Below are positions 1-14,456 of a stretch of DNA of 21,036 nt, piece by piece. The DNA lies in the IMG/VR virus record IMGVR_UViG_3300044568_000623, positions 1-21,036 of that record; one strand, written 5' to 3'. The notes under the pieces are model-generated. The model was not told the DNA's origin and searched no databases. It saw only the letters and a program-made list of their open reading frames with translations. How positions within the stretch are numbered: the stretch's first letter is position 1; every line of letters starts with the position of its first letter. A program made the translations under genes and the position numbers. The stretch is from a virus.

Positions 1-518
1 TCATCGAGACTTTGATTGTTTAAAACTATCTTGAGTAGGTTATGCACTTCCTCACCACTAAAGTAATGACCACTCTTACGAATCTCACCGTACTGTTCAG
101 AGATACGTATGATTGCACCTCGTATGTTCGTACCGAATGTTCTATTAATAAACTCTTCGCTGTTCTTAGGTAACAAATCCTCCTTCTCTATGACTTTCAT
201 CAAGTGAGAGATTCTCTTAGCATAGTATGTGTACTTATCTTCCCAATGACGACCACGATCTTTAGCAACCATAGTCGCACGAATGTTATACGCATCGGTT
301 TGTCTGTCTTTCCATATAGATGCAATAGGAAAGCCTTGCTCATCAGCGAGTAACAGTCTTAAATGATGATTACTACCGACTGTCCTACTAATAACTTTTA
401 GCCCATACTTATGCGTAAGCTCTCTTAGAAGAGGGAACGCTTCGTGTTCTCGTATTGCTTCTTCAGTTATTATTGTATTGTCTGCAATAGGATGCAGATA
501 CGTTTGATGTATAGACAT
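1..518 (-). CDS. Unknown phage protein, C-terminus cut by window edge
   Basis: An open frame runs leftward from an ATG at 518 to the window edge (172 codons, no stop), beginning MSIHQTYLHPIADNT. An AAAGG Shine-Dalgarno lies 8 bases upstream. It follows the VWA gene by 35 bases in the same direction, so it is the fourth gene of the DUF3150-MoxR-VWA cassette. The visible part is mixed alpha/beta, rich in charged residues, with no membrane segment and no catalytic motif I recognise. I do not recognise the family. Its position suggests it is co-expressed with, and perhaps a substrate or partner of, the ATPase/VWA pair, but that is inference. Confidence 0.8.
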   Translation of the reverse strand, partial: MSIHQTYLHPIADNTIITEEAIREHEAFPLLRELTHKYGLKVISRTVGSNHHLRLLLADEQGFPIASIWKDRQTDAYNIRATMVAKDRGRHWEDKYTYYAKRISHLMKVIEKEDLLPKNSEEFINRTFGTNIRGAIIRISEQYGEIRKSGHYFSGEEVHNLLKIVLNNQSLD

Positions 519-553
519 TTTATTTACCTTTCCATGTATGAGTGGATTGTTAA
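519..553 (-). repeat. Intercistronic hairpin repeat, copy E1
   Basis: Imperfect inverted repeat TCCAT...AGTGGA (531-546) followed on the plus strand by TTGTTAATTA. It sits between the VWA stop and the next start, just upstream of that gene's SD. It is one member of a family also found near 2948, 3868, 6655, 7215 and 8374. Confidence 0.5.
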
Positions 554-1807
554 TTACAGCTTGTCAATCTTGACCAACTTGCCTTTCGGCGGTTTGAAGC
601 TACGATTTTGCGTAACGAGCCACAAAGTATCGACGCCAGTTATCCAAGCCGGATTATCTTCGACATAGCCGTCTGTAAACACAACGATACAATCTGGGTT
701 GTACTTCTTCTGCTCGATGTACTTCGATACACAACTAACGTGCGTACCACCACCGCCCAATGGTTTAAGAATATCTTTGACGTTAGGCGAGTCACCACCA
801 AACACCTGCTCACCATGCACCTCAGTATCCCACCATAGAACACGCACGGTCTCAGGCTTGCATACATCACAGATAGTCTGTAACTGCATTGCGAATGTAC
901 TGATGATCTCTTGAGTGATAGACCCCGATGTATCAATAGCTATGATGATCTCTGTCATTGTCTCTGACTCTACACTTGGTGCAAGAATGTCATTAGCCAA
1001 TAGACCTCGATGAAACCTACGCCATGTCAACTCGTCACGACCCCGCACCGATGCTGTCACGAACTCACGCAGCTCTTCCTTCCAATCGAGAGGCTTCTCT
1101 ATAGATACACTTACCTCACGAGGAACTTTAGCTCCGAGCCGACCCGCAAGAATCCCACCCTCACGCAATGCACGACCGACACCCTCTTCCAACTTCTTCA
1201 TCTCTTCGGCGGTCTTAGGCGCACCTTCTATATCATGATGATCTTGATTCTTAACAGTCACTTGCTTACCATTGATGTTTATCACTCCACCTTGACATGG
1301 ACTGTTATTTTCATCGCCATCACCAGACTCAGACCCTGATCCAGCACCGCCTTGTGGTTTCTGTCGCTGAGGATTCTGTTTACGCAACTCGTTATAGACC
1401 TCACGAACTGACCAACCATCGAACGCATGATCTAAGATACCGCCTTCTGGCATCTCGCACAAAGTCTTGTCCTCAAGGTTGTCGATAATATTGTTGACAA
1501 TAATATCCATCGCTATGTTTGCCAACGTAGCATCCTCACGCATCAAGTCTTTGTGACGTGGTATGTGCATCAACGCAACGTGGAGATTCTCGTGCATGAC
1601 TAAGAATCTCGCTTGCTTATCGTTTTGTTTAGCAAAGAACTCACGACCATACTTCTTATTAGTGCCGTCGGTGTACGCAGTAGGTACACCGTCAGCTATT
1701 GCACTCTCACCCATCATCATTATGCTGCCATACAGCGCAGTTTCTTTGTGACGCATGAGAGCGATGTGTTGCTTCTTCAAACGCTCTTCGTCTGTTAGGT
1801 ATGCCAT
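554..1807 (-). CDS. Metallopeptidase-like/VWA-like protein (DUF2201 type)
   Basis: Protein of 417 aa. The N-terminal domain (about 1-115) matches the putative metallopeptidase domain of DUF2201 proteins: HENLH at 72-76 is a zinc-binding HExxH motif, with H81 and D101 nearby as further ligand candidates. A Gly/Ser/Asp-rich linker (about 150-170) follows. The C-terminal VWA-like domain (about 283-417) has an intact MIDAS metal site: DTSGS at 292-296, T355 after a GGGG run, and FTDG with D379. In this family a VWA subunit works with a MoxR-type AAA+ ATPase, and that ATPase is encoded immediately upstream. I chose the ATG at 1807 because GGAGA lies 7 bases before it; an in-frame TTG at 1825 lacks a ribosome site. 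Whether the HExxH site cleaves anything is unknown. Confidence 0.9.
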   Translation of the reverse strand: MAYLTDEERLKKQHIALMRHKETALYGSIMMMGESAIADGVPTAYTDGTNKKYGREFFAKQNDKQARFLVMHENLHVALMHIPRHKDLMREDATLANIAMDIIVNNIIDNLEDKTLCEMPEGGILDHAFDGWSVREVYNELRKQNPQRQKPQGGAGSGSESGDGDENNSPCQGGVININGKQVTVKNQDHHDIEGAPKTAEEMKKLEEGVGRALREGGILAGRLGAKVPREVSVSIEKPLDWKEELREFVTASVRGRDELTWRRFHRGLLANDILAPSVESETMTEIIIAIDTSGSITQEIISTFAMQLQTICDVCKPETVRVLWWDTEVHGEQVFGGDSPNVKDILKPLGGGGTHVSCVSKYIEQKKYNPDCIVVFTDGYVEDNPAWITGVDTLWLVTQNRSFKPPKGKLVKIDKL

Positions 1808-1821
1808 ATTAGATTCTCCAA

Positions 1822-2922
1822 TCAAACAAACTTGTAATTGTCTTTAGTCCATGCCTTGACCGTGTCGTTATTACACGCCAACTTCACAGTCTTTTTGTTA
1901 CTCATCAACATGGTAAAGAATATAGATTGCAACTCGCTGTTCTTCATGCGGTTATTGAACTTCATGAACTGAGTCAACTCATCCTCTGTTGTTATCTCAT
2001 CTATCGCATTGAACATGATCATGCACAACGCTGCTACATCCTCTGGCATTGTTACGCCTTCGGGGTCGGCTATGATTGTCTTAATCGGTATCAACTGACT
2101 TTGCATATCAATAAATACAGACAACGCTTTCTGAGTAGCAAGACCTACGATACCTGCGATTGCAACGTCTGCCGCCTTGTGACCAATGATGTCACGATTA
2201 ACTACTACACGATTCAACTTGAAGATAGAACGTGGTGAAGCAAACGACACGCATTGACTTGGCTTGGTTGGGTTAAAGATGTGTGGATTATCTTCTTGCC
2301 CACCGTCTTTGTAAGATGCCATGATGCGAGGATTCAACGCAACGAAAGCACGAATAGTATTTGATACACCATTCTCACCCGCCCAGATATTCCACTTGGT
2401 TGAATTGGATTTCTCCATCGGTATCAACGCTACACGATTGCCAACGTGCGCTTGAACAGAGTCCCCTACACCATCGCTTCCGTTATTAGATGTTCCAAAC
2501 ACCATCGAACCCAACGGCAACTCACGATCACCCACCATACGCTCAAGCATCAAGCGAGTATAGATAACGCCCATCAACTTCGGAACTTTGAACAACTCGT
2601 CAAGCATGATGACCTTCGGCTTGTCACTATCCATCTTGAACAACGCACCGATGTACTGCTCTAGTGACTTGCTGTCATGGTTAGGAATGACTGCGGCTAT
2701 GTCCATATAATCTTTTGACGGACAGTCAACGTAGATGTAATCATAAGCATCACCCATCTTCTGTTTGAGTAACTTAAGTATGGAAGTCTTACCTACACCT
2801 GGCTCGCTAAGAAAGATTGGCGTGATGTGAGAGTCATCTCCCTCAACTGTGGTTGAGATAACAGGAATAAGATTCGCTGCTTCTTCGATTGTTACGGTCT
2901 CTGCAAAGTTTACTTTTGACAT
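1822..2922 (-). CDS. MoxR/CobS-type AAA+ ATPase
   Basis: Protein of 366 aa with a single AAA+ module. Walker A is SEPGVGKTS (39-47), Walker B is VIMLDE (104-109), and a sensor-1-like FGTSNN lies at 142-147. The motif spacing and the adjacent VWA gene place it in the MoxR/CobS group, ATPases that remodel or load metal into partner proteins through a VWA adaptor. The stop lies 14 bases before the VWA start, and the DUF3150-like gene lies 38 bases upstream, so the three are one operon. The start at 2922 has AAAGG about 10 bases upstream. The substrate in this phage cannot be told from the sequence. Confidence 0.88.
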   Translation of the reverse strand: MSKVNFAETVTIEEAANLIPVISTTVEGDDSHITPIFLSEPGVGKTSILKLLKQKMGDAYDYIYVDCPSKDYMDIAAVIPNHDSKSLEQYIGALFKMDSDKPKVIMLDELFKVPKLMGVIYTRLMLERMVGDRELPLGSMVFGTSNNGSDGVGDSVQAHVGNRVALIPMEKSNSTKWNIWAGENGVSNTIRAFVALNPRIMASYKDGGQEDNPHIFNPTKPSQCVSFASPRSIFKLNRVVVNRDIIGHKAADVAIAGIVGLATQKALSVFIDMQSQLIPIKTIIADPEGVTMPEDVAALCMIMFNAIDEITTEDELTQFMKFNNRMKNSELQSIFFTMLMSNKKTVKLACNNDTVKAWTKDNYKFV

Positions 2923-2935
2923 GATCTATTTACCT

Positions 2936-2964
2936 TTCAACGTATCAAGTGGATTAATAATTAA
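2936..2964 (-). repeat. Intercistronic repeat, copy E2 (degenerate left arm)
   Basis: AGTGGA (2948-2953) followed by TTAATAATTAA matches the right arm and AT tail of the E-repeat family. The left arm (TTCAACG) is degenerate. It lies between the DUF3150-like stop and the MoxR SD. Confidence 0.45.
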
Positions 2965-3860
2965 CGTGCTGCAAACATGGACAGAATGTCGTCCATACTA
3001 CTTTTAACATCGGAACGTGCTGCGTCTGATTCACGCAACATATCCGCATTAACTCCTCGCAACGCTAAGTCAAGCTGCGATACTGCTGCATCCAACTTCG
3101 CATCGTTCGTGAGATTAAACTCTTTAAATGTACGGCAATACTCTTTAGCCTTATCGACCGTACCCTCGTAAATCTTGCGCTTCTTCTGCTTCATCTCACC
3201 GTCTTTGCCAACGTACTCATCCACGTCACAGCAATGAGATAAACTCTCCATGACATCGACTAGTCGCTCGACCTGATCGTTAAGAATGTTTTGCACGATA
3301 CTCTGCGCTTGCTTGTTGTAATGATTGTTTAGATCATCGGCTAAGTCCTGCGCTATCTGGCAACGATAGTCGCCTTGTGGAATCTCGCTTGTATATAGTG
3401 TGATACCGAACTTGTTACGCACCTCTGCCACATCTGGATAATCATTACGATTAAACATCTGACCTTGAGCGAACGCCATGTTCGAAACTGTTGTTGCGTA
3501 GTTATTACAGAACACATCTAGCAACTTGTTGAACTCGACCTCATGATCATGAAACTCTTGCATGAACTTAGGTAAGCTAACGTGCGGTAGATAATCCTGC
3601 GACTTGTTCCATGAATACGTCATACGCTGCATCCAATTGTAAACAGTCTGACGATAATTCAATAGATTCTTGTGGTCGATATTGTTGGCTAAGAGATTCT
3701 TAACGAATCTGCCTGCGCTCTGATCGGCTTTCTTTGCGGTAGTAACCTCATTGCTGATAGCACGATCTTGCTTTGTTGCTGACCATACGTTGACTTCGAC
3801 TGATACTAATAAACCTGCTGTTGCAAGTGACGTAATGTGCTTCGGTTTTTCTAGATTCAT
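2961..3860 (-). CDS. DUF3150-like protein, partner of MoxR/VWA
   Basis: Protein of 299 aa, mostly helical, with charged helices throughout and a conserved-looking N-terminal segment LLVSVEVNVWSATKQDR. That segment, the size and the position beside a MoxR ATPase and a VWA protein resemble DUF3150 proteins, which accompany CobS/CobT-like pairs on phages and plasmids. Function is unknown; a role as substrate adaptor is inference. I chose the ATG at 3860 rather than 3872, because GGAG ends 6 bases before it while the upper ATG has no ribosome site. The SD overlaps the left arm of hairpin E3, so its translation may be controlled by RNA structure. Promoter A lies about 80 bases upstream. The family call is less certain than those for its two neighbours. 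Confidence 0.65.
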   Translation of the reverse strand: MNLEKPKHITSLATAGLLVSVEVNVWSATKQDRAISNEVTTAKKADQSAGRFVKNLLANNIDHKNLLNYRQTVYNWMQRMTYSWNKSQDYLPHVSLPKFMQEFHDHEVEFNKLLDVFCNNYATTVSNMAFAQGQMFNRNDYPDVAEVRNKFGITLYTSEIPQGDYRCQIAQDLADDLNNHYNKQAQSIVQNILNDQVERLVDVMESLSHCCDVDEYVGKDGEMKQKKRKIYEGTVDKAKEYCRTFKEFNLTNDAKLDAAVSQLDLALRGVNADMLRESDAARSDVKSSMDDILSMFAAR

Positions 3861-3867
3861 TTTAGAC

Positions 3868-3895
3868 TCCATGTGAACGTGGATTGATATTTAAT
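3868..3895 (-). repeat. Intercistronic hairpin repeat E3, overlapping an SD
   Basis: TCCATG (3868-3873), loop TGAA, CGTGGA (3878-3883), then TTGATATTTAAT. In leftward RNA this forms a 6-bp stem with one G-U pair, and the stem includes part of the GGAG that starts the DUF3150-like gene. Confidence 0.55.
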
Positions 3896-3941
3896 AAACA
3901 CTTAACTGAACTGATTTAACTTACTGAATTACTACCCTATT

Positions 3942-3970
3942 ATTATAGTATAACTTGACTTATACCACAA
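3942..3970 (-). promoter_or_regulatory. Promoter A (leftward, sigma70-like)
   Basis: On the minus strand, -35 TTGTGG (3965-3970), 17-base spacer, -10 TATAAT (3942-3947). It sits inside about 60 bases nearly repeated at promoter B (6706-6770). It would drive the DUF3150-MoxR-VWA cassette. The spacer contains TATAAGTCAAGTTATA, a near-palindrome that could be an operator. Confidence 0.65.
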
Positions 3971-3989
3971 TAGGTTTAAACAACTATTT

Positions 3990-4088
3990 CTAGCATCCGG
4001 CTCGTATAAAAATACCCATAGCGACGATAAAGCCAAGAACAAACGCACAGGCTAGGTACACGATAAAATCAGGGTCTTGATTATCCAT
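3990..4088 (-). CDS. 32-aa membrane miniprotein
   Basis: ATG at 4088 with GGAGA 9 bases upstream; the protein starts MDNQDPDFIVYLAC and ends in RAGC. Residues about 8-28 form one hydrophobic helix (IVYLACAFVLGFIVAMGIF), giving a single-pass membrane protein with an acidic N-terminus. It overlaps the 3' end of the preceding 49-aa gene by 37 bases in another frame, the kind of nesting seen in phage lysis or membrane-stress genes. There is no signature of a known holin or spanin. It is the last gene before promoter A. Confidence 0.55.
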   Translation of the reverse strand: MDNQDPDFIVYLACAFVLGFIVAMGIFIRAGC

Positions 4089-6297: not shown

Positions 6298-6627
6298 TTA
6301 TTCCCCTATCCCATGCTCGCCCAACCACGAGTCGTAGTCGAACTGCTTTTCTGCATCTGCCAACGCTTCGCCTTCAAGGTCTGGCATATCTTCGCTCCAT
6401 GTCTGCGTGGACTGATGTTTAATGCTGTTGAGTCTGTGTACAGATACTGGGGCTTGCCATTCAGGTAGCGGGGGCTTTGCCTTGAATAAAAACTCTTCTG
6501 GCTGATGCTTATGTTCGTTTACCGCATGGTTTACTTTGCGGTTTAGTTCTATTTCTCTTTCGATAATGGCATGTACCATGTGTCGAGGTACTTGTTGCTT
6601 GATGATGTGGTCTTTCAGTTTTGCCAT
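6298..6627 (-). CDS. Unknown 109-aa protein, first gene after promoter B
   Basis: The protein (MAKLKDHIIKQQVPRHMV...) has a basic helical N-terminal half and an acidic C-terminal half (DMPDLEGEALADAEKQFD). The ATG at 6627 has GGAGTGAATC upstream, an SD arrangement that recurs at other leftward genes here (9364, 8932). It lies about 90 bases downstream of promoter B, with hairpin E4 in the leader. No family is recognised. Confidence 0.75.
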   Translation of the reverse strand: MAKLKDHIIKQQVPRHMVHAIIEREIELNRKVNHAVNEHKHQPEEFLFKAKPPLPEWQAPVSVHRLNSIKHQSTQTWSEDMPDLEGEALADAEKQFDYDSWLGEHGIGE

Positions 6628-6654: not shown

Positions 6655-6681
6655 TCCACGCAGTACGTGGACTGATATTTA
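6655..6681 (-). repeat. Hairpin repeat E4 in the promoter B leader
   Basis: The best copy of the family: TCCACG (6655-6660), loop CAGTA, CGTGGA (6666-6671), then CTGATATTTA. Perfect 6-bp arms. It lies between promoter B and the SD of the 109-aa gene. Confidence 0.6.
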
Positions 6682-6715
6682 GCGGGGCTGTACGCTTCCA
6701 TTCCCCACTACCTTT

Positions 6716-6744
6716 ATTATACTATAAGTTGACATATACAGGAA
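6716..6744 (-). promoter_or_regulatory. Promoter B (leftward, sigma70-like)
   Basis: Minus strand: -35 TTCCTG (6739-6744), 17-base spacer, -10 TATAAT (6716-6721). Flanks and spacer match promoter A over about 60 bases. It lies at the left edge of the octamer-repeat region and should drive the 6627-3990 operon. Confidence 0.65.
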
Positions 6745-6817
6745 GAGGTTTAATTTACTATTTTTACGGGTTTTGTTCCGGCTGTTCGGGCAGAGTCAGA
6801 ACAGAAAAGGGTTGTTT

Positions 6818-6963: not shown

Positions 6964-7214
6964 GTTCTGTTCCGGAAGAAAAAAGGTATATACCCCCCGC
7001 AGGTGTTTTTTCTTGCACTTGCCGAGCCGTTCGAACAATCTGCAAAAAACGCACGTTTCAGCCCATACCTCCTAAAAAGACCAGAACACTGGAACAAGCA
7101 GCTAAGTCCTTGATTTTAAAAGTAAAATCTTGTTCCGTTACCAGAACAACAACAGAATTACCGGAACAGAATTTAGCCCTGCTGCGTCATTTAAGAAAAA
7201 ATTAAATGATAGAA

Positions 7215-7242
7215 TCCACGCATGACATGGATTGATAATTAA
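7215..7242 (-). repeat. Hairpin repeat, copy E5
   Basis: TCCACG (7215-7220) and TGGA (7228-7231), then TTGATAATTAA. Same family as E4, but here it is not next to a gene start, which suggests that it may work at the DNA level. Confidence 0.45.
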
Positions 7243-7320
7243 GTGGCTGGGCGTAGGCAGGGCGTCGGCTGTTGTTCTCATGGCTGATGAGATTTCGTAA
7301 TTTACGCGGGCATACATACA

Positions 7321-7360: not shown

Positions 7361-7390
7361 GAAAAAAAACCCTAGACCGTAGTCTAGGGC
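7361..7390 (-). terminator. Rho-independent terminator (leftward), twin 1
   Basis: Hairpin CCCTAGAC-CGTA-GTCTAGGG (7370-7389) with eight A on the plus strand to its left, so a U-tract follows the stem in leftward RNA. It ends the 56-aa gene and has the same hairpin as 7589-7608. Confidence 0.85.
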
Positions 7391-7396
7391 TGTGGG

Positions 7397-7567
7397 TTAT
7401 GGGTATCTTAATCCAGTGGCGGGATCAATTAAACCTGATACGTCACCGATAACGCCAATCCGATCAATTGCATTTTTGAATTCGACTAGCGTTAATATGC
7501 CGTTATAGTAATGCGTTACAGTTTCCTTAATGTATCCATCAATAGAATTCAAATCTTGTTGAATCAT
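7397..7567 (-). CDS. 56-aa unknown protein between twin terminators
   Basis: ATG at 7567 with AGGGG 6 bases upstream; the protein begins MIQQDLNSIDGYIKETV and ends GLRYP. It is soluble and probably helical in its first half. It is a complete reading frame with good ribosome-site spacing, enclosed by two identical terminator hairpins (7370-7389 and 7589-7608), so it is expressed either by leak-through or from a weak promoter I could not identify. No family is recognised. Confidence 0.65.
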   Translation of the reverse strand: MIQQDLNSIDGYIKETVTHYYNGILTLVEFKNAIDRIGVIGDVSGLIDPATGLRYP

Positions 7568-7580
7568 AATAATCCCCTAA

Positions 7581-7608
7581 GAAAAAAACCCTAGACCGTA
7601 GTCTAGGG
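7581..7608 (-). terminator. Rho-independent terminator (leftward), twin 2
   Basis: Same 20-base hairpin as twin 1 at 7589-7608, with seven A to its left on the plus strand. It lies 18 bases past the stop of the 211-aa gene. Confidence 0.85.
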
Positions 7609-7626
7609 TTGTGAGTTAAAACAATA

Positions 7627-12000: not shown

Positions 12001-14456
12001 GCATTGAAAAAGGTTTATATGCAGCGCCTCTTGGCATTATGGAAGATGAGGCAGAGCCATTAGAGATTGAGATCGAGGACCCAGAGGCAGTGCGTATTCG
12101 CGCGGGTGATCTTGAGCTTGATATTGAAAAAGAAGAGATGGACGAAGAAGACTTCGAGGCTAACTTAGCTGAGTATATTGATGATAGTGAACTAGCTATG
12201 TTAGCTAGTGAATTAGTTGATGCTTATGAAGAAGATGTATCGAGCCGCAAGGATTGGATACAGACTTATGTAGATGGTCTTGATCTATTAGGTATGAAGT
12301 TAGAAGAACGTACTGAACCGTGGAACGGTGCGTGTGGTGTTACACATCCACTATTAACAGAAGCACTTGTTAAGTTTCAATCAGAAACAATCATGGAGAC
12401 GTTCCCAGCGTCAGGTCCTGTTAAGACAAAGATCATCGGTAAAGAAACACCAGAGAAGAAACAAGCTGCTGATAGAGTTCAAGCTGACTTGAATTTCCGT
12501 TTAACAGAAGGTATGCCTGAATATCGTCCTGAACAAGAACGTTTGTTATGGGGCTTGGGTTTATCAGGTAATGCGTTTAAGAAGGTTTACTTTGATCCTG
12601 CATTAGATCGTGAAACAGCGATATACATTCCATCTGAAGATGTAGTTGTTCCATACGGCGCGTCGTCTCTCAAAACGGCAGAGCGTGTTACACATGTGAT
12701 GCGTAAGACTGAGAACGAGTTACGTAAGCTACAAGTAGCGGGCTTCTATTTAGATGCAGACTTAGGTGACCCTGTTAACTCTATTGAAGAAGTAGAGAAG
12801 AAGATTGCAGAGAAGTTAGGCTTTAGAGCTACAACGGATGATCGTTACAAGCTCTTAGAGATGCATGTTGACTTAGACTTACCGGGCTTTGAAGATGAAG
12901 ACGGTATAGCATTGCCTTACGTAGTTACTATTGAGAAGTCAACACAAACAATTCTAGCTATCCGTCGTAATTGGAAGCCTGATGACAAAACAAGACAAAA
13001 ACGAAACCATTTCGTTCACTATGGGTATATACCGGGCTTTGGTTTCTACTGCTTCGGTCTCATTCACCTTATCGGAGCTTTTGCAAAGTCAGGCACATCC
13101 ATTCTCCGTCAACTCGTTGATGCAGGGACCCTCTCGAACCTTCCGGGTGGACTTAAAGCTCGCGGGATGCGAATCAAAGGAGACGATACACCAATCGCAC
13201 CGGGTGAATTCCGTGACGTAGATATACCAAGTGGTGCTGTTAAAGACAACATCATGATGCTCCCATACAAGGAGCCAAGTACAGTATTAGCCTCTTTGAT
13301 GAATCAGATCATTGAAGATGGACGTAGGTTTGCTAGTGCGGCTGATATGAAAGTATCTGATATGTCCGCTAACTCCCCAGTTGGAACCACACTAGCTATT
13401 TTAGAGAGAACCCTGAAAGTAATGTCAGCGGTTCAAGCGCGTATTCACTACGCTATGCACGAAGAGTTCCGTCTATTGAAAGACATAGTACGTGACTTTG
13501 CTCCACCTGATTATGAGTATGAACCAGACGTCGGCAATAGAACCGCAAAGCAAAGTGATTACGACATGTGTGATGTTATACCTGTCTCTGATCCAAACGC
13601 TGCGACTATGTCGCAAAAGGTTGTTCAGTATCAGGCGGTATTTCAGTTAGCTCAATCAGCACCACAGCTATATGACATGCCACTTCTACATCGTCAGATG
13701 ATTGAAGTATTAGGTATTAAGAACGCAGCTAAGTTAGTACCGATGAATGAAGACAGACGTCCACGCGACCCTGTTACAGAAAATATCGACATTTTAAAAG
13801 GCAAACCTGCTAAAGCGTTTGTATTCCAAGATCATCAAGCGCATATTTCTGTACACATGGCAGCGATGCAAGACCCGAAGATACAGTCAATCGTAGGACA
13901 AGACCCACAGTCAGCACAAGTAATGATGGCAGCCATGCACGCACACATCAACGAGCATGTTGGGTATGAGTATAAGAAACAGATTGAAGCTTCTATTGGT
14001 ATGGAGATTCCTGACTTTGAGGATGACGATGATCAAGAGATACCGAAGGAAATGGAAAACCGTATCGCACAGATGGCAGCTCAAGCGTCACAACAGATAC
14101 TACAACGTAACCAACAAGAAGCTCAACAACAGCAAGCTCAGCAGCAGATGCAAGACCCTATCATTCAGATGCAAATGCAAGAATTGCAGATCAAGCAAGC
14201 AGAGGTTCAGCGCAAGATTGCGAAAGATCAACTCGATGCGGCTGCAAAAGACAAGCAGATGCAGATTGAAATGGAGCGAATTAATGCGCAGAAAGAGATT
14301 GCTGGGGCGAATATGGCGATGAAACATACCGCAGATAAGCAAAGAAATGATACACAAATGGAGCTGGAAGGCTTCCGTCAAGGTATGGAAATGAACAAAC
14401 AACGTATGCAGCAAGCGTCTATTAGTAAACCCCCACAAAAAGGAAAGAATAAGTGA
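11997..14456 (+). CDS. Portal protein with long Q-rich C-terminal tail
   Basis: Protein of 819 aa, longer than most phage portals. After an acidic N-terminus, residues about 70-150 (RTEPWNGACGVTHPLLTEAL, then ETIMETFP) match large P22-like portals of environmental phages; the central region has the mixed alpha/beta pattern expected of a clip/wing/stem core. Residues about 689-819 are a Gln/Met/Lys-rich coiled coil (for example QQEAQQQQAQQQMQDP), comparable to the barrel helices of large portals. Twelve copies should form the DNA entry ring that docks TerL. It begins with ATGA overlapping the 76-aa gene. The portal call is strong; the exact family is from memory. Confidence 0.88.
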   Translation: MSIEKGLYAAPLGIMEDEAEPLEIEIEDPEAVRIRAGDLELDIEKEEMDEEDFEANLAEYIDDSELAMLASELVDAYEEDVSSRKDWIQTYVDGLDLLGMKLEERTEPWNGACGVTHPLLTEALVKFQSETIMETFPASGPVKTKIIGKETPEKKQAADRVQADLNFRLTEGMPEYRPEQERLLWGLGLSGNAFKKVYFDPALDRETAIYIPSEDVVVPYGASSLKTAERVTHVMRKTENELRKLQVAGFYLDADLGDPVNSIEEVEKKIAEKLGFRATTDDRYKLLEMHVDLDLPGFEDEDGIALPYVVTIEKSTQTILAIRRNWKPDDKTRQKRNHFVHYGYIPGFGFYCFGLIHLIGAFAKSGTSILRQLVDAGTLSNLPGGLKARGMRIKGDDTPIAPGEFRDVDIPSGAVKDNIMMLPYKEPSTVLASLMNQIIEDGRRFASAADMKVSDMSANSPVGTTLAILERTLKVMSAVQARIHYAMHEEFRLLKDIVRDFAPPDYEYEPDVGNRTAKQSDYDMCDVIPVSDPNAATMSQKVVQYQAVFQLAQSAPQLYDMPLLHRQMIEVLGIKNAAKLVPMNEDRRPRDPVTENIDILKGKPAKAFVFQDHQAHISVHMAAMQDPKIQSIVGQDPQSAQVMMAAMHAHINEHVGYEYKKQIEASIGMEIPDFEDDDDQEIPKEMENRIAQMAAQASQQILQRNQQEAQQQQAQQQMQDPIIQMQMQELQIKQAEVQRKIAKDQLDAAAKDKQMQIEMERINAQKEIAGANMAMKHTADKQRNDTQMELEGFRQGMEMNKQRMQQASISKPPQKGKNK

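Follow-up and report, generated by a model that had tools for sequence, protein, structure and literature searches.

A fixed phage block of a DUF3150-like protein, an AAA+ ATPase, a zincin-VWA protein and an accessory protein placed with DNA-replication genes

Four genes at the end of the contig

The whole stretch of viral DNA analysed here (the window, 21,036 nt) carries four co-directional open reading frames on the minus strand at positions 1–3872, and recovery of these frames and of their Pfam domains confirmed the gene set as originally predicted. Gene 1 (2961–3872, minus strand, 303 aa) codes for a DUF3150-like protein and may start at 3860 instead of 3872, probably giving 299 aa. Gene 2 (1822–2922, minus strand, 366 aa) codes for an AAA+ ATPase of the AAA_5/MoxR-midasin kind, gene 3 (554–1807, minus strand, 417 aa) for a protein with a zincin-type DUF2201_N domain and a DUF2201 VWA domain, and gene 4 (1–518, minus strand, 172 aa present) for an uncharacterised protein whose 3' end is lost at the contig end. 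Upstream of gene 1 lies a promoter-like repeat on the minus strand (3940–3992, TTGTGG-17-TATAAT), which reads as a promoter by consensus match only. This 53-nt direct repeat is 79% identical to a second copy at 6714–6766 and carries TATAAT. A single promoter for the four genes is plausible, but promoter-like sites in this arm are no more frequent than in shuffled sequence (20 found, 22.5 expected).

The label of gene 1 is supported through its relatives. A direct Pfam scan returned no PF11348 (DUF3150) match to the window protein, and its relatives score 9–16 bits, below the cut-off of 24.9. A plasmid protein annotated as DUF3150 in its own record likewise reaches only 21.8 bits against this model. 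By hhalign, the gene 1 profile aligned with 98.8% probability to the annotated DUF3150 proteins of Cupriavidus plasmid pRK1-1 and phage MinM2, and with 99.5% to a Simplicispira plasmid open reading frame that is unnamed in its record. The AlphaFold2 model (pLDDT 80.6) consists of long helices and found generic helical matches only in the PDB. Residues 34–57, an N-terminal segment, are conserved and modelled with low confidence. A literature search found no paper naming DUF3150.

The ATPase matches Pfam AAA (27.4 bits, cut-off 21.2) and PHROG 1297 'ATPase' (1e-40). AAA_5 remains below its cut-off of 22 for the window protein (14.7 bits) and exceeds it for the proteins of XC38, MinM2, pSYSA and pRK1-1, while AAA_3, the Pfam model typical of MoxR, gave no match to the window ATPase. 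Both Walker motifs are intact (Walker A EPGVGKTS, residues 40–47; Walker B IMLDE, residues 105–109), with GxGK and DE each kept in 49 of 49 ATPases. The best solved relative in the PDB is midasin (1.8e-28), a match obtained with the wider ATPase profile only, since no PDB relative emerged when the profile was restricted to the nine closest ATPases.

Gene 3 matches PF13203 (DUF2201_N, 1.4e-21) and PF09967 (DUF2201, 2.4e-16), both over cut-off. The frame can be extended to a TTG at 1825, but the start is probably the ATG at 1807, which follows a Shine-Dalgarno sequence (TGGAG). In the longer, 423-aa frame the VWA domain spans residues 293–421 and is thus C-terminal, with the zincin domain in front. 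Numbered from the start at 1807, the protein contains HENLH (72–76), DTSGS (292–296), T355 and D379. The predicted pairing of a MIDAS site with a zinc HExxH motif holds: the MIDAS is intact in 49/49 VWA proteins and HExxH in 48/49, and in 30 diverse sequences, drawn from plasmids and phages of several kinds, conservation is complete only at H72, E73, H76, D101, W242, D292, S294, S296, G353, G354, T355 and D379. Most of these positions are presumed ligands of zinc or of the MIDAS metal, D101 being a putative zinc ligand. Conservation of the catalytic glutamate of HExxH argues for real peptidase chemistry, although proteolysis may be dispensable since Schitovirus Littlefix has HLxxH in its place.

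Gene 4 behaves differently. Its homologues (47 non-redundant loci) have a median pairwise identity of 23%, compared to 50–54% for the other cassette genes, and thus diverge far faster; intact relatives measure about 295–340 aa, typically ~325 aa. Comparison with Pfam, PHROGs, NCBIfam and PADLOC, and tblastn of phages, gave nothing convincing. A model of the homologue from relative L006 reached a pLDDT of 89.4 and had no PDB match with E ≤ 0.001. A second PDB comparison brought up YjbR and frataxin-like entries with Z scores of at most 5.2, which we consider too weak to use. The model does match viral predicted models, and those exclusively (A0A516LPG7, E 6.5e-16, unnamed), so no function follows. 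Genes downstream of the trio in MinM2, one of them labelled anti-CRISPR AcrVA2 in Pag-Yong1, bear no relation to gene 4.

A joint unit with separable parts

The order DUF3150-ATPase-VWA-gene 4 is kept in all 46 distinct viral loci in which the four genes were found, and this arrangement is not due to chance. The gene-to-gene divergence matrices are concordant (Mantel r 0.86–0.92). Together with the intact Walker, MIDAS and HExxH residues, these observations support the view that the four genes form a joint unit. The original prediction would have been weakened by relatives with separated genes or broken motifs; instead, the set is found together, with Walker and MIDAS residues invariant and HExxH nearly so. 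The neighbourhoods bear out the full set in the 46 loci and part of it in L120 and MinM2, which lack a recognisable gene 4. The DUF3150-like gene is present in 76 viral loci, and many relatives carry an additional gene between genes 3 and 4 that is unrelated to gene 4. In the studied phage lineage the cassette is fixed and vertically inherited.

The cassette had been described as occupying the far end of an early-type arm, away from structural genes, and this position had been taken to suggest action on a protein of the host or an invading element. This argument is not supported. The apparent far end is an effect of the contig end: in relatives with near-complete sequences it is internal to the early arm and stands immediately ahead of the replication genes, which code for DNA polymerase A, a PD-(D/E)XK exonuclease, a helicase and a primase. 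The four genes are a fixed phage block placed with DNA-replication genes. This larger cassette appears to be undescribed, whereas the ATPase-VWA/peptidase pair has already been published.

In N4-like phages (Schitoviridae), the gp24 ATPase and a DUF2201 VWA protein (PHROG 1297/1314) are homologous to genes 2 and 3 at about 20–25% identity, are usually neighbours or close, and keep the MIDAS intact, with Littlefix lacking the HExxH glutamate. Genes for helicase and DNA polymerase come directly after this pair, and N4 gp24/25 belong to the middle transcripts (PMC4193335). DUF3150 and gene 4 were absent from the seven searched phage records with the pair (five N4-like phages, CRP-7 and Vequintavirus YP-6). 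Since N4-like and Vequintavirus records contain the pair without it, DUF3150 is not essential to the pair. Group 2.2 jumbo phages encode a MoxR-vWA pair with a fused metallopeptidase, which has the same domain architectures by its authors' description; the portion of that paper describing the pair makes no mention of DUF3150 or gene 4 (PMC7824862).

The trio recurs outside this lineage. Cyanophages MinM2, Pag-Yong1 and Pra-JY27 (65,014 bp), whose capsid protein is 70% identical to that of the window, carry ATPase, DUF3150 and VWA genes in this order within 4.5 kb of the early arm, with small genes between them. The Burkholderiales plasmid pRK1-1 of Cupriavidus, which is not a virus, has genes for an ATP-binding protein, DUF3150 and a VWA-like protein side by side, again in the order ATPase-DUF3150-VWA. 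Among the matches listed, DUF3150 adjoins VWA in 20 of 20 plasmids, which are Burkholderiales plasmids. DUF3150 thus appears to be a real third component, being fixed in one phage lineage and recurring with the pair in MinM2 and the Cupriavidus plasmid. Gene 4 was not found in the DUF3150-ATPase-VWA trios of plasmids and MinM2. This absence, and the lack of a family or PDB-fold match, lends no support to the suggestion that gene 4 is a substrate or effector; we regard it as a rapidly diverging accessory confined to one lineage, with a fold that is predicted with confidence but unmatched. An actinobacterial MAG contig (L135) seemed to offer a clue to the host but was dismissed as a chimera of the assembly: its phage trio is joined to a UDP-glucose dehydrogenase gene missing the first ~30 residues, and the gene is absent from 149 related genomes.

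A remodelling complex and its alternatives

We consider it somewhat better than even (roughly 55%) that the four genes specify a complex that uses ATP to remodel proteins, has what looks like an intact zinc-peptidase site and is expressed together with the replication genes. From the protein families we infer a ring-shaped ATPase, a MIDAS grip and zinc binding. Gene 2 would form the AAA+ ring, and gene 3 would be its partner, with the VWA domain gripping an acidic residue of the bound protein via the metal-bound MIDAS and the N-terminal HExxH...D domain able to cleave the gripped protein. Gene 1, with its long helices and conserved flexible N-terminal segment, would be a dedicated third component, most likely an adaptor that links the complex to a target or docks in the MIDAS, a role suggested by this conserved, poorly modelled segment. 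Gene 4, and in many relatives the gene between genes 3 and 4, would be lineage-specific accessories. Such a complex may strip apart or cleave a protein complex that forms in early infection, more likely a DNA-acting complex than a part of the virion.

Midasin (Rea1/Mdn1) is also an AAA+ ring that works with a MIDAS domain, although it is a single, giant polypeptide that serves ribosome assembly in eukaryotes and is not known to carry a zincin domain. Its MIDAS domain binds partner proteins, which the ring then removes. Midasin is named among the studied MoxR-vWA couplings (PMC7159879), and the ring of NorQD uses its VWA partner to exert force (PMC13036017). The MoxR-vWA ternary conflict systems likewise combine such a pair with a third protein, but theirs is a VMAP, iSTAND, FtsH or beta-propeller protein instead of a DUF3150-like one, and their vWA proteins often carry a C-terminal effector (PMC7159879), whereas the window VWA domain is itself C-terminal and gene 3 has no effector domain behind it. 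Pfam, NCBIfam and PADLOC, a comparison that did not extend to VMAP and iSTAND profiles, revealed no such domain in gene 1. Membership in a defence system was rejected for want of a PADLOC match.

The same complex could act in counter-defence, unfolding and cleaving a host defence or restriction factor picked by gene 1 or gene 4. The early-arm position, the intact peptidase site, the far faster divergence of gene 4 and the occurrence of the module in phages as well as in conjugative and other plasmids, all of them exposed to the same defences, are consistent with this proposal. We nevertheless think it unlikely, since gene 4 is missing from the trios of plasmids and MinM2 and the cassette is a constant, vertically inherited feature of this phage lineage, while anti-defence genes usually come and go; that PADLOC gave no match is weak evidence, as its library covers defence and not counter-defence. 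A bolder version, to which we give slightly less credence still, is a new type of ATP-dependent metalloprotease borne by phages and plasmids: a MoxR/midasin ring would feed substrates into the zincin-VWA peptidase, DUF3150 would serve as the substrate adaptor and gene 4 as a fast-evolving specificity factor, and the machine would clear away host proteins that keep the incoming element from replicating.

For the group 2.2 jumbo phages, the relevant part of the published account proposes that the same domain pair serves virion assembly, and cites as a precedent the tail chaperone of Acidianus two-tailed virus (PMC7824862); some RPP1 virion proteins are also encoded near the N4 gp24/25 homologues (PMC4193335). 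A virion-assembly chaperone with a processing peptidase, folding or cutting structural proteins, is quite improbable here. HTVC023P, DSL-LC04, CRP-902, Caulobacter RW and QDWS535 have homologous major capsid proteins (41–65% identity) and no DUF3150 or VWA match, which shows that this virion does not need them. Furthermore, the module lies in the replication arm instead of the structural arm, accompanies virions of unrelated types (N4-like, Vequintavirus) and is found on plasmids that have no virion.

A NorQD/CoxDE-like chaperone for metal insertion or metalloenzyme maturation, acting on an enzyme of phage or host, for instance a reductase, is very improbable, since no metalloenzyme gene lies beside the cassette in the families scanned, the best solved ATPase relative is midasin with no NorQ/CbbQ chain among the best 60 PDB matches of the wide profile, and we know of no fused zincin domain in NorQD/CoxDE-type partners; its precedent is metal insertion by MoxR-VWA pairs, NorQD among them (PMC13036017; PMC9976466).

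The favoured remodelling complex turns the vague notion of 'MoxR-VWA in phages' into a testable idea, for which the cultured relatives Pag-Yong1 and MinM2 exist. The ATPase-VWA/peptidase pair is widespread in phages, with no tested function found in our literature search, and the module occurs irrespective of the type of virion and alongside replication genes. Finally, gene 3 matches PHROG 1314, whose public label 'HNH endonuclease' appears to be wrong for the VWA/peptidase family.

Gene content and linkage of the cassette

The window, a virus fragment of 21,036 bases from IMG/VR, carries four genes that read leftward on the minus strand. Gene 1 (2961-3872), the first of them, returned nothing above cut-off in a direct family search; it aligns with database-annotated DUF3150 proteins by profile alignment (98.8% with a deep profile, linked also with a shallow one), and the matches of its relatives to PF11348 are all below cut-off. 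For gene 2 (1822-2922), Pfam AAA scores above cut-off and PHROG 1297 ("ATPase") reaches 1e-40. Gene 3 (554-1825, though ATG 1807 is the better start) matches DUF2201_N and DUF2201, both above cut-off, and PHROG 1314 at 3.9e-82. Gene 4 runs from 518 to the contig end, and family searches assigned it to no family. PHROGs and many phage records give the DUF2201 zincin-VWA family (PHROG 1314) the label "HNH endonuclease", which the domains identified in this analysis do not support. Examples of the family lie in L017 (phage Littlefix, 5538-6764), L018 (5459-6670) and L019 (5036-6160).

The original prediction of a joint system was largely borne out: relatives keep the genes in fixed order in 46 distinct loci with conserved active sites, rather than separately or with broken residues. 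A search with the ATPase alone found 12 viral loci, all 12 with gene 1, and with genes 3 and 4 in order wherever the locus is long enough. A DUF3150 profile search led to 76 loci. Among all fetched loci, 69 (46 distinct) have the complete set arranged 1-2-3-4; these loci were recruited through one of the four, so the result is that the other three accompany the recruiting gene. The pairwise divergence matrices of the cassette genes are concordant (Mantel r 0.86-0.915, reached by 0 of 500 permutations). The exceptions concern gene 4, which is not recognisable within 3.3 kb past gene 3 in L120, the locus most divergent by gene 1, and which was absent from MinM2 when searched for with a positive control.

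Among the 46 distinct loci, 31 leave over 700 bases between gene 3 and gene 4. In 33 loci this gap is occupied by another, fifth gene family, with proteins about 335 aa long (for example 12976-14019 in locus L116, and 32 others). This family belongs to more distant relatives, shows no relationship to gene 4 and gave no matches in Pfam, PHROG or PADLOC.

Active sites and predicted structures

Walker A GxGK and Walker B DE are present in all 49 ATPase sequences, and the MIDAS residues D, S, S, T and D in 49 of 49 VWA sequences. The HExxH glutamate is kept in 48 of 49; the exception, from the Schitovirus Littlefix (L017 5538-6764), is a natural HLxxH metallopeptidase variant with an intact MIDAS, a hint that some phages may get by with remodelling and need no cleavage. 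When 30 VWA proteins of the present lineage, N4-like phages, CRP-7, MinM2 and plasmids were aligned (Littlefix excluded), the columns without any variation were H72, E73, H76, D101, W242, D292, S294, S296, G353, G354, T355 and D379. The spacing HExxH...NxAxD suggests D101 as a candidate third zinc ligand.

Midasin is the best solved relative of a broad ATPase profile (1.8e-28); the window ATPase gave no match to the MoxR-typical AAA_3 and a below-cut-off match to AAA_5. The gene 1 model consists of long helices (pLDDT 80.6). Its residues 34-57 are of low model confidence and lie within the family's most conserved stretch, a pattern compatible with a docking segment; D36 and V43 are kept even in plasmid proteins. 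A gene 4 model, built for the relative in locus L006, is alpha/beta with a long central helix (pLDDT 89.4). Against the PDB it found nothing at E <= 0.001, with weak Z values on a second look; three viral matches were significant, all without named function.

Distribution, position and proposed function

By capsid, the closest cultured phages are MinM2, Pag-Yong1 and Pra-JY27 (70% identity); both of the two examined cluster ATPase, DUF3150 and VWA genes in the early arm. DUF3150 and VWA had no match in HTVC023P, DSL-LC04, CRP-902, Caulobacter RW and QDWS535, of the same capsid family. Absences are based on profile searches and on named phages with complete records; absence from a fragment was not counted as proof. 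DUF3150 stands beside VWA on Burkholderiales plasmids, several of which are conjugative; the two genes are neighbours in all 20 plasmid records common to both listed searches. An ATP-binding protein gene precedes DUF3150-VWA in pRK1-1, the DUF3150 locus of a Simplicispira plasmid has no immediately adjacent ATPase, and Synechocystis pSYSA has only the ATPase-VWA pair. A published study already reports the ATPase-VWA pair, with a fused metallopeptidase, from jumbo phages (PMC7824862). A candidate host link, L135 4418-5764 on an actinobacterial MAG contig, was rejected as an assembly chimera, in which a truncated UDP-glucose dehydrogenase gene and purE/purK are fused to the phage trio. Of three cyanophage records that are each 65,014 bp long, one names the second gene past the VWA gene (L028 13051-14091 in Pag-Yong1) anti-CRISPR AcrVA2 and another calls it hypothetical; the AcrVA2 label has no backing from Pfam or NCBIfam.

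The terminal position on the arm ascribed to the cassette was not confirmed, as it reflects the contig end. The near-complete genome G009 (64,341 bp) shares synteny with the window, with 81% identity in the terminase and 93% in the capsid. Its cassette occupies 9.3-13.7 kb, and the genes after it encode DNA polymerase A, a PD-(D/E)XK exonuclease, a helicase and a primase/helicase; DNA polymerase A likewise comes soon after the cassette in other large relatives. N4-like phages have homologous ATPase and VWA genes directly upstream of helicase and DNA polymerase, and gp24/25 of N4 belong to the middle transcripts (PMC4193335). These neighbours and, by analogy, the timing in N4 suggest that the cassette works during replication. 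A role in building the virion is less likely, given that the cassette is missing from capsid relatives and that DUF3150-VWA occurs on plasmids.

We infer every functional statement on the cassette from protein families. Judging from characterised members such as midasin, a MoxR/midasin-type ring and its VWA partner together exert a pull on the protein that the MIDAS binds. Such pulling is characterised for the ring-VWA pair NorQD (PMC13036017), and by analogy gene 2 and gene 3 would act alike. The bound protein may also be cut, because the VWA partner bears an apparently intact zinc-peptidase site. Found both in phages and on plasmids, which are unrelated settings, DUF3150 is the leading candidate for the role of constant adaptor. 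Gene 4, which evolves faster (median identity 23% versus 50-54% for the others) and is restricted to the lineage, is probably an accessory.

Repeats and hairpins in the minus arm

An intergenic element recurs at 519-558, 2923-2971, 3867-3895, 6395-6423, 6655-6689 and 7205-7249, just upstream of minus-arm genes and near or overlapping the Shine-Dalgarno sequence. Several copies form a short stem-loop (e.g. TCCACG-TTCA-CATGGA), and a TTCACC..CCTGAAAGG hairpin occupies matching places in the related loci L003, L006 and L007. The element may have a shared role in translation or RNA processing. A promoter-like 53-nt direct repeat (3940-3992 and 6714-6766, 79% identical) contains TATAAT on the minus strand, and two terminator-like minus-strand hairpins (7363-7399 and 7582-7618) are 95% identical and 219 bases apart.
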